Source: Bacteroidales bacterium (GTDB taxonomy: Bacteria > Bacteroidota > Bacteroidia > Bacteroidales > UBA932). Taken from it: DNA of 59,195 nucleotides. The notes under the pieces are model-generated. The model was not told the origin of the DNA and made no database searches. It saw only the letters and a list, made by a program, of their open reading frames with translations. The translations under genes and the position numbers were made by a program. Positions 12,803-14,503 of this stretch are shown here, one piece after another (the stretch's first letter is position 1; every line of letters starts with the position of its first letter). The stretch spans positions 1 through 59,195 of the forward strand of contig JAAYCA010000011.1 of NCBI GenBank assembly GCA_012744435.1, given 5' to 3'.

Positions 12803-13654
12803 TTACGGAATGATTTTGTCTATGTTGAGTACGAGGATGCCCTCGGCGCCGATGGCCTTGAGCTGGCGGATCTTGTCCCAGAGATCGGCTTCGTCCACGA
12901 CGGAGTGCATCGAGCACCAGCCTTCGGCGGCCAGCGGCATCACGGTCGGGCTGCGCATGGCGGGCAGGATCCGGGTCGCTTCGTCCACGGAGGCGAGCGG
13001 GAGGTTCATCAGGATGTACTTCTTGCGGCGGCTCACCATGGCGGAGTCGATGCGGAAGAGCATCTCGTCGAGGGTCTTCCGCTCCGCTTCGTCCAGTTTG
13101 CCGTTGGAGATGAGCACGGCCTCGGAGAAGAAGACCTTCTCCACCTCGCGCAGCCCGTTGGACACCAGCGTCCCGCCGGACGAGACGATGTCGAAGATGG
13201 CGTCGGAGATGTCGGCGGCCGGGGCGATCTCCACGGAGCCGGTGATCACTTCGATCTTCGCCTCGATGCCCTGTTCCTGCAGCCAGGAGCGCAGGATCCG
13301 GGGGTAGGAGGTGGCGATGCGCTTGCCCGCGAACCACTGCGGCCCGTCGTAGTCGACGGACTTGGGAACGGCCAGGGAGATGCGGCAGGCGCCGAAGCCG
13401 AGCTTCGCGACGACCTCCACGTCGAAGCCGCGCTCCACGACTTCGTTGAGTCCCACGATGCCGAGGGCGGCCGTGCCGCTGGCGACGACCTGCGGGATGT
13501 CGTCATCGCGCATATAGAGGAGTTCCAAGGGGAAATTCGGCGCCTGGGCCAGGAACTTCCGGCGCGAGTCGTCGATGTCGATCCCGATCTCGCGCAGCAG
13601 GGCGGTGGTGTCTTCGTTGAGACGGCCCTTGGATTGGATGGCTAGTCTTAACAT
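12803..13654 (-). CDS. hisG: ATP phosphoribosyltransferase, long form
   Basis: A 283-residue enzyme for the first committed step of histidine synthesis (ATP plus PRPP). It is the long HisG form: two periplasmic-binding-like catalytic domains (about 1-210, with SGGTLVSNGL as the PRPP loop) and a C-terminal ACT-like domain (about 215-283) that gives feedback inhibition by histidine without HisZ. The start at 13654 (MLRLAIQSKGRL) is the family start; an upstream ATG would extend into the attenuator terminator. It is the first gene of the his operon. Confidence 0.97.
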   Translation of the reverse strand: MLRLAIQSKGRLNEDTTALLREIGIDIDDSRRKFLAQAPNFPLELLYMRDDDIPQVVASGTAALGIVGLNEVVERGFDVEVVAKLGFGACRISLAVPKSVDYDGPQWFAGKRIATSYPRILRSWLQEQGIEAKIEVITGSVEIAPAADISDAIFDIVSSGGTLVSNGLREVEKVFFSEAVLISNGKLDEAERKTLDEMLFRIDSAMVSRRKKYILMNLPLASVDEATRILPAMRSPTVMPLAAEGWCSMHSVVDEADLWDKIRQLKAIGAEGILVLNIDKIIP

Positions 13655-13670
13655 AAATCTACTAACTATA

Positions 13671-13702
13671 ATAAAAAAGGCTTCCCGGATGTCCGGCAAG
13701 CC
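13671..13702 (-). terminator. Intrinsic terminator of the histidine attenuator
   Basis: On the minus strand a strong hairpin (GGCTTgCCGGA, short loop, TCCGGgaAGCC; 13679-13702) is followed by six T (13673-13678), ending 17 bases before hisG. It lies after a histidine-rich leader peptide and so would end transcription early when charged tRNA-His is plentiful. The CCGGA of its left arm (13692-13696) can instead pair with TCCGG at 13739-13743 just after the leader stop codon, giving a candidate antiterminator. Confidence 0.9.
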
Positions 13703-13746
13703 CCAATGTTGCTATGCATACGCATATGCACCGACCTACCGGATCT

Positions 13747-13788
13747 TCAGATTCGGTGGTGATGATGATATGCGAGGCTGTACTTCAT
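13747..13788 (-). CDS. hisL: Histidine operon leader peptide
   Basis: A 13-codon minus-strand ORF encoding MKYSLAYHHHHRI and a TGA stop. Four consecutive His codons (CAT CAT CAC CAC, 13756-13767) precede the stop by two codons. It begins about 7 bases after a consensus promoter and about 45 bases before an intrinsic terminator that precedes hisG. This is the architecture of ribosome-mediated transcription attenuation: a ribosome stalled at the His codons would favour antitermination. The 5' leader before its ATG is only a few bases, so it is probably translated almost leaderless. Confidence 0.88.
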   Translation of the reverse strand: MKYSLAYHHHHRI

Positions 13789-13794
13789 ACATCG

Positions 13795-13824
13795 CAAAGT
13801 TATCAATTATTTCCGGAAATGCAA
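13795..13824 (-). promoter_or_regulatory. Promoter of the histidine operon
   Basis: TTG (13822-13824), 19 bp, TAACTTTG (13795-13802) on the minus strand: a perfect Bacteroidota promoter. It sits in the short gap right after the clpP stop, so the his operon has its own promoter although clpP lies upstream on the same strand. Confidence 0.88.
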
Positions 13825-13831
13825 ATCTGCG

Positions 13832-14503
13832 TCAATCCTTTTTGCTCAGGATCTTGTCGATCATGCCGTAGCCGAGGGCTTCGTCGGCGCTCATCCAGTA
13901 GTCGCGGTCGGCGTCGGCGAAGACTTTGTCGTAGGGCTGGCCGCTGTGTTGGGCGATGAGGGAAATGAGCTCCGCGCGGGCCTTTTCGATCTCCTTGGCG
14001 GCGATGAGGATGTCGGAGGCCTGGCCTTCGGCGCCGCCGAGCGGCTGGTGGATCAGCACGCGCGAGTGCGGCAGGGCGGAGCGCTTGCCTTTCTGTCCCG
14101 CGCAGAGCAGCAGGGAGCCCATCGAGGCGGCCATGCCCGTGCAGATGGTGGCCACGTCGGGCTGGATCAGCTGCATCGTGTCATAGATCGCCAGGCCGCT
14201 GGAGACCTGTCCGCCCGGGGTGTTGATATACAGGGAGATATCCTTGTTGGCGTCCACGGACGAGAGGAACAGCAGCTGCGCGAGGATGATGTTGGCCACG
14301 TCGTCGTTGATGCCGACGCCGAGGAAGATGATGCGGTCCATCATCAGGCGGCTGAACACGTCCATCGACGCCACGTTGAGCGGGCGCTCCTCGATGATGG
14401 TCGGGTTGATGTAGGCGCCGACCGCCGCCTGATAGTCCCGGAGGGTCATGGGGTTGACGCCGCGCGCGAGGGTGGCGTATTGTTCGAATTCGCTCTTCTT
14501 CAT
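13832..14503 (-). CDS. clpP: ATP-dependent Clp protease proteolytic subunit
   Basis: A 223-residue serine peptidase that forms the tetradecameric chamber of Clp proteases. The triad is Ser127 (GMAASMGS), His152 (LIHQPLGG) and Asp201 (ADRDYWMS). HQPLGG in place of the usual HQP(L/S)GG and the N-terminal extension are within the Bacteroidota range. Its usual partners tig and clpX are not adjacent; instead it starts 14 bases after a kinase-AAA+ ATPase gene on the same strand, which suggests co-expression with that ATPase. Confidence 0.96.
   Translation of the reverse strand: MKKSEFEQYATLARGVNPMTLRDYQAAVGAYINPTIIEERPLNVASMDVFSRLMMDRIIFLGVGINDDVANIILAQLLFLSSVDANKDISLYINTPGGQVSSGLAIYDTMQLIQPDVATICTGMAASMGSLLLCAGQKGKRSALPHSRVLIHQPLGGAEGQASDILIAAKEIEKARAELISLIAQHSGQPYDKVFADADRDYWMSADEALGYGMIDKILSKKD

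Follow-up and report, generated by a model that had tools for sequence, protein, structure and literature searches.

The DNA just upstream of hisG in this Bacteroidales genome raises two questions: whether the short leader encoded there controls the his operon by ribosome-mediated attenuation, which is a classical mechanism, and how a ribosome would begin translating a leader peptide whose start codon lies only a few bases beyond a promoter match. An initial annotation, made from the letters alone, had proposed such an attenuator at 13671..13802 of the window, by which is meant the whole stretch of DNA that was analysed (59,195 nt). As argued below, the locus is very probably a classical ribosome-mediated attenuator of hisGDCBHAFIE, with a leader ORF whose translation is predicted to begin on an almost leaderless transcript. 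The leader lies between a clpP-like gene and genes that we take to be those of the his operon, their names being assigned from Pfam family and gene order:

13832-14503, minus strand: clpP-like gene directly upstream of the his leader (Pfam PF00574)
12803-13654, minus strand: hisG, first structural gene (Pfam PF01634, PF08029)
12798-11518, minus strand: hisD (Pfam, histidinol dehydrogenase)
11525-10479, minus strand: hisC (Pfam, aminotransferase)
10504-9446, minus strand: hisB (Pfam, IGPD)
about 9446-8862, minus strand: hisH (Pfam, GATase)
8865-8122, minus strand: hisA (Pfam, His_biosynth)
about 8164-7379, minus strand: hisF (Pfam, His_biosynth)
7299-6688, minus strand: hisIE (Pfam, PRA-CH/PRA-PH)

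The hisH and hisF starts were taken from longer ORFs and are hence approximate. The hisG ATG occupies 13654-13652 on the minus strand, and the closest hisG sequences among named records, up to 91% identical, come from Bacteroidales MAGs. No leader was apparent at ilvD in the window.

A check of the sequence found every element named in the initial annotation, on the minus strand and in the order TTTG, N19, TAACTTTG, 6 nt, leader ORF, hairpin with six T, hisG; the TTTG falls outside the range 13671..13802. The elements are as follows:

13825-13822, minus strand: -33 element TTTG, 19 nt before the -7 element (sequence and published consensus)
13802-13795, minus strand: -7 element TAACTTTG (sequence)
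13794-13789, minus strand: 6-nt gap CGATGT between the -7 element and the leader ATG (sequence)
13788-13747, minus strand: his leader peptide ORF MKYSLAYHHHHRI, 13 codons plus TGA (sequence; His-run ORF conserved in relatives)
13767-13756, minus strand: four regulatory His codons CAT CAT CAC CAC, codons 8-11 (sequence; covariation of the 1:2 helix)
13742-13733, minus strand: segment 2, CCGGTAGGTC, which pairs with segment 1 or 3 (covariation in 69 relatives)
13702-13693, minus strand: segment 3, GGCTTGCCGG, shared by the terminator (as its 5' arm) and the antiterminator (as its 3' arm) (pairing, covariation)
13688-13679 and 13678-13673, minus strand: segment 4, CCGGGAAGCC, and the six T of the predicted intrinsic terminator

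The leader reads ATG AAG TAC AGC CTC GCA TAT CAT CAT CAC CAC CGA ATC TGA, which bears out the claimed 13-codon frame with four consecutive His codons and then a stop. It is a short ORF with tandem codons for the end product of the operon, and the last of these codons double as part of segment 1, which consists of the last part of the His run together with CGA ATC and has segment 2 as its partner.

The RNA that follows the leader stop begins AGATCCGGTAGGTCGG, and three mutually exclusive pairings can form within the leader: segments 1 and 2 (1:2), segments 2 and 3 (2:3, the antiterminator) and segments 3 and 4 (3:4, the terminator). Their competition matches that of a textbook attenuator. The last of the three is the hairpin GGCTTGCCGG-ACAT-CCGGGAAGCC (13702-13679, minus strand), with nine pairs and one G-G mismatch followed by six T, and both folding and covariation predict it to be an intrinsic terminator between the leader ORF and hisG. 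The hairpin did not appear in a simple terminator scan, its stem presumably being broken by the G-G mismatch, but it does form in RNA folding. The segment said to pair with the terminator stem exists and is longer than the 5 bp first claimed, segments 2 and 3 forming 10 contiguous pairs (G-U included) that exclude the terminator, as pairing and covariation both indicate. The terminator with its six T also stood, though the T run lies 18 rather than 17 nt from the hisG ATG. Covariation supports a 1:2 hairpin that includes the regulatory codons and withholds segment 2 from the antiterminator, and the minimum free energy fold of the window leader combines 1:2 with 3:4 (folding z = -3.5, with none of 200 shuffles equally stable). 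An outer extension of this hairpin, in which the Ala-Tyr codons (GCATAY) would pair with RNA after segment 2, is not claimed: of 20 his leaders and five trp leaders tested, only five and one, respectively, did better than shuffles at p<=0.05.

Such a structure could in principle act on the translation of hisG, or the control could lie with a ligand-binding RNA (a T-box or riboswitch) or a repressor, and T-boxes or HisR do serve his genes in other phyla (PMC9413887). We regard control of this kind as very unlikely here, since the 3:4 hairpin leads into a run of T and stops 24 nt short of the hisG ATG, where there is no Shine-Dalgarno sequence available to hide, and since no Rfam family was found at gathering score in the window or in 14 relatives. 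A known Rfam element was rejected on the same search, the window giving only three unrelated weak matches (E 2.5-9.9) at E up to 10. The His_leader family, RF00514, had no match in the window (E up to 10) or in the 14 relatives (gathering score).

Comparison with related leaders gives the reading as an attenuator of transcription its main support. Covariation was followed in an alignment of the 69 leaders of the window group. With structures taken from the window sequence, a choice that favors the version left in register, 92.6% of 689 antiterminator cells were paired (at most 50.3% when slid), as were 93.5% of 619 terminator cells (at most 64.7%) and, for the 1:2 helix, 88.6% of 690 (at most 42.5%). 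Cells with changes on both sides numbered 43 for the antiterminator, 46 for the terminator and 49 for the 1:2 helix, against 15.8, 19.4 and 19.7, respectively, in shuffled alignments; the aligned sequences are related, so these shuffle figures are no probabilities. Less striking is the number of pairs changed on both sides, which shuffles reached in 14 of 500 cases for the antiterminator, 20 of 500 for the 1:2 helix and none of 500 for the terminator.

Beyond this group, the phylum sample included hisG from 252 of 296 genomes, of which 29 new loci and 60 hand-picked regions spreading the genera were used; distant short forms of hisG lie outside it. Leaders were found at 77 of 98 window-group loci and at 67 of 100 in the rest of the phylum, counts that contain near-duplicates (L003 and L032, for example) until identical leaders are merged, which leaves 139 or, with another key, 138. 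A hairpin with a T run follows the leader stop in 127 of 138 non-identical leaders and is strong in 109. In 57 of 69 leaders of the window group and 35 of 58 from the rest of the phylum, the 5' arm of the terminator pairs with RNA upstream of it better than in shuffles (p<=0.05). The initial annotation had staked its reading partly on conservation in relatives, and the comparison found leader, terminator, antiterminator and anti-antiterminator all kept, with covariation.

These comparisons also bear on a more mundane explanation, that the hairpin merely terminates the clpP-like gene, with the His codons there by chance. The clpP-like gene does end shortly before, at 13832, but a promoter match lies between that gene and the hairpin, and the 2:3 and 1:2 helices covary, which a plain terminator would not need. 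Moreover, by the stricter rule His-run ORFs precede hisG at 144 of 197 loci (53 are without) and at none of 197 on the opposite strand, five shuffles giving 3, 0, 2, 0 and 0 of 197; left out of the count are L001, which duplicates the window, L161, where the script located no hisG, and L181, whose hisG lies at the edge of its stretch. Conservation and covariation led to the rejection of this explanation, which we consider barely credible.

A covariance model of the his leader (R1), run against 61 genomes, gave 24 matches in 21 genomes at E <= 0.001, of which 21 precede hisG by their coordinates, two of them in tandem in one genome; a further match, L267, precedes a thrB-like gene, and the matches L265 and L268 are apparently terminator hairpins only. 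All told, a his attenuator is most likely common across the phylum, as judged from these sequences, and is one to which no Rfam family corresponds.

There is some variety among the loci. In a first set of 111, in which L001 and L002 are both the window itself, a His-containing ORF lies upstream of hisG in 91 by a loose rule; among the other 20, the contig of L068 ends too early. Seven more of the 20, L006, L062, L063, L070, L071, L076 and L082 (the first two identical over the stretch compared), show no His leader, hisG following immediately on a different coding frame, and in these relatives the operon seems to have changed its promoter and lost attenuation. One locus, L026 (reverse strand, about 1052-1340), carries two tandem His-run leader ORFs before hisG, each with a terminator-like hairpin, in what is apparently a double attenuator. 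Another structural type of his attenuator is found in L137, L146, L158 and L160, among others; its terminator arm resembles AAACCCGTTTGA, and MRNQITHHHFYTCPQAS is an example of its leaders.

How the switch might work was explored with a model in which nucleotides under or behind the ribosome (reaching 15 nt ahead of the P site) are forced unpaired and the RNA is cut after segment 3, the starved state being the His codon that gives the highest antiterminator pairing. This is an equilibrium model, and it leaves out the formation of 1:2 before segment 3 exists. In the window, the predicted antiterminator pairing drops from 0.90 for a ribosome on the His codons to 0.30 for one at the stop codon, a spacing with which a stalled ribosome would free segment 2 and a ribosome at the stop would block it. 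The starved value exceeded the stop value in all 69 window-group leaders and in 53 of 58 others (122 of 127 together). The stop state fell below 0.3 in only 25 of the 69 and in 42 of the remaining 58 (67 of 127 together), and pairing in that state is still high in some relatives (0.75 in L003, 0.72 in L057). Without a ribosome, antiterminator pairing is still 0.69 in the window and 0.81 in L003, and the 1:2 hairpin is weak; the equilibrium model therefore does not predict termination when translation is absent.

The proposed sequence of events would begin with RNA polymerase starting 1-2 nt before the leader AUG and a ribosome loading on the emerging 5' end of the RNA. When charged His-tRNA is scarce, the ribosome would stall on the His codons and cover segment 1; segment 2 could then pair with segment 3, which would block the terminator and allow hisG to be transcribed. 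When it is ample, the ribosome would reach the TGA with its footprint over most of segment 2, segment 3 would pair with segment 4, and transcription would end. The response to histidine is inferred from the sequences, and the conserved leader, the competing helices and their covariation all argue for ribosome-mediated attenuation of the kind first proposed.

The initiation step is the less familiar part of this scheme. The consensus TTTG/TAnnTTTG is published for promoters of Bacteroidota (PMC7366714, PMC6847099), and in F. johnsoniae the -7 element is described as having its G at -5, with the start 4 or 5 nt further on (PMC6847099). Applied to the promoter match in the window, the F. johnsoniae spacing would place the his transcription start at 13790 or 13789, giving a 5' UTR of 2 or 1 nt. 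The almost leaderless start asserted in the initial annotation thus holds as a prediction, one drawn wholly from promoter geometry, which puts the leader AUG 1-2 nt from the predicted 5' end of the RNA. The accompanying remark that the leader has no Shine-Dalgarno sequence is true but marks no peculiarity: its absence is the rule in Bacteroidota (PMC6847099, PMC3155529), and for this reason it was rejected as a special trait of the locus. There is also an ATG in another frame at 13792, 4 nt ahead of that of the leader; its frame runs for 18 codons (13792-13736, minus strand) to a TAG in segment 2, where the leader stop of several relatives also lies (CGG TAG). Being upstream of the predicted start, this ATG would be absent from the RNA.

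The same attenuator could instead be carried on an ordinary leadered RNA, produced from an upstream start or by readthrough from the clpP-like gene, in which case initiation would be nothing special. Leadered RNAs are the rule in Bacteroidota: 5' UTRs under 10 nt are put at about 3.7% in B. thetaiotaomicron (PMC7366714), 87% exceed 10 nt in F. johnsoniae (PMC6847099), and 5.5% of transcripts are given as leaderless in F. psychrophilum (PMC9723704). The clpP-like gene stands directly upstream on the same strand, and a sigma-70-like site, TTGACG-N18-AATAAT (13835-13806), was also listed by the simple scan; it is a possible alternative promoter and would place the RNA start further upstream, sigma-70-like boxes being reportedly absent from promoters of Bacteroidota (PMC7366714). 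Gaps of at least 17 nt between the -7 element and the leader ATG are found in part of the relatives, Alistipes among them. Against a leadered RNA, the full TTTG/TAACTTTG match lies only 6 nt from the ATG, and a short gap recurs: with identical sequences counted, 43 of 56 window-group leaders that match the -7 element exactly have one, as does the trp leader found elsewhere in this genome. We consider the leadered version unlikely.

The distribution of gaps across the phylum points the same way. Of 139 non-identical leaders, 91 have an exact TAHHTTTG no more than 40 nt from the leader ATG and 48 have none. With the in-frame ATG that gives the smallest gap chosen throughout, the distance from the -7 element to the ATG is 4-10 nt in 56 of the 91, 11-16 nt in one and 17-35 nt in 34. 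The 67 leaders with a single in-frame ATG after the motif divide into 35, 1 and 31, and this near lack of gaps of 11-16 nt also speaks against a leadered RNA; if the innermost ATG is taken throughout (88 leaders), the counts become 35, 15 and 38 and the two modes blur. The gap is bimodal, at 4-10 nt or at 17 nt and above, most clearly where there is one possible AUG. Short gaps occur in seven further families of the sample. They also occur outside leaders: 7 of 8 exact-motif leaders in the genus of the window are short-gapped, compared with 7 of 31 ordinary motif-bearing genes in 238 kb of the window genome (Fisher p = 0.0014, indicative only since the sequences are related).

The trp leader of the same genome (L213, on contig C61) reads MMFRTNAYWWWSLLQLKEVVRG. 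It has a gap of 7 nt, or of 10 nt to a second ATG, and a terminator-like hairpin, and it precedes a gene that we take to be trpB-like; trpE was identified by Pfam. Close relatives have trp leaders with gaps of 7 (L216), 6 (L217) and 6 nt (L233), while the other exact-motif trp leaders show gaps of 20-31 nt (L218, L220, L221, L222, L223, L225 and L229) or 11 nt (L236); two leaders at distant trpB-like hits, L240 and L241, have gaps of 7 and 8 nt. The his and trp leaders of the clade share Ala-Tyr before the regulatory codons, as in MTRMNAYHHHHRTPQAR (his, L102) and MKTRMNAYWWWRLLQLPEVVRG (trp, L216), reflecting either a common origin or a shared constraint. One relative has at L267 (1475-1601) a leader with eight Thr codons, MRFNLTTTTTTTTGQFYWHG, and a terminator-like hairpin, before genes that we presume to be thrB-like and thrC-like; the his model scores it at 36 bits, and it is apparently a threonine attenuator. 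A wider generalization, that the his and trp attenuators of Bacteroidales are leaderless sensors, transcribed from the leader AUG onward, with the first ribosome loaded at the RNA tip and kept in step with the polymerase by neither a Shine-Dalgarno sequence nor a 5' UTR, and that his, trp and perhaps thr leaders are one module with its codons swapped, is offered tentatively and strikes us as rather doubtful.

Attenuators of comparable design are known elsewhere. The enteric his leader peptide contains seven His codons. Like the leader in the window, the enteric element (RF00514) places a short His-run leader peptide ahead of the his operon, with a terminator that competes with an antiterminator (PMC9413887); the window leader differs in having no Rfam match, four His codons, a Bacteroidota promoter, no Shine-Dalgarno sequence and a predicted leaderless start. 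In a different phylum, the Firmicutes attenuators of the Bacillus cereus group, Eubacteriales and Erysipelotrichales were found by comparison and are described with 3-5 consecutive His codons plus a terminator and an antiterminator (PMC9413887). The Bacteroid-trp leader, RF01692, is likewise an amino-acid leader RNA of Bacteroidetes (PMC2864571), but it serves trp rather than his; the his leader of the window has no match to it, and the trp leader of the same genome matches it below threshold (30.6 bits against a cut-off of 49, E 0.13). A leader AUG at the 5' end of the RNA in a ribosome-dependent attenuator is described for S. meliloti trpL (PMC7298713) and C. glutamicum ilvB (PMC11857589), members of other phyla in which the leaderless start is reported, whereas in the window it follows from promoter geometry. 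Within the same phylum, PMC9723704, the main text of which never names histidine, notes strong clues that leader peptides attenuate amino-acid operons in F. psychrophilum, and sORFs reminiscent of leader peptides are noted in B. thetaiotaomicron (PMC7366714). In the openly licensed literature searched, neither a his attenuator nor a leaderless attenuator was found described for Bacteroidota. Some attenuators of Bacteroidetes/Chlorobi are reportedly listed by Vitreschak et al. (2004), and Neshat et al. (2014) reportedly treated leaderless ones in C. glutamicum.

The his leader is a candidate for a new RNA family, and its most interesting trait is the predicted leaderless start, the attenuation itself being classical. 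The bimodal distance from promoter to AUG hints at two initiation modes for one sensor. If the present reading is true, histidine sensing by ribosome stalling would be widespread in a gut-abundant phylum that does not use Shine-Dalgarno initiation, and it would become a testable question how the first ribosome loads fast enough to couple with RNA polymerase.
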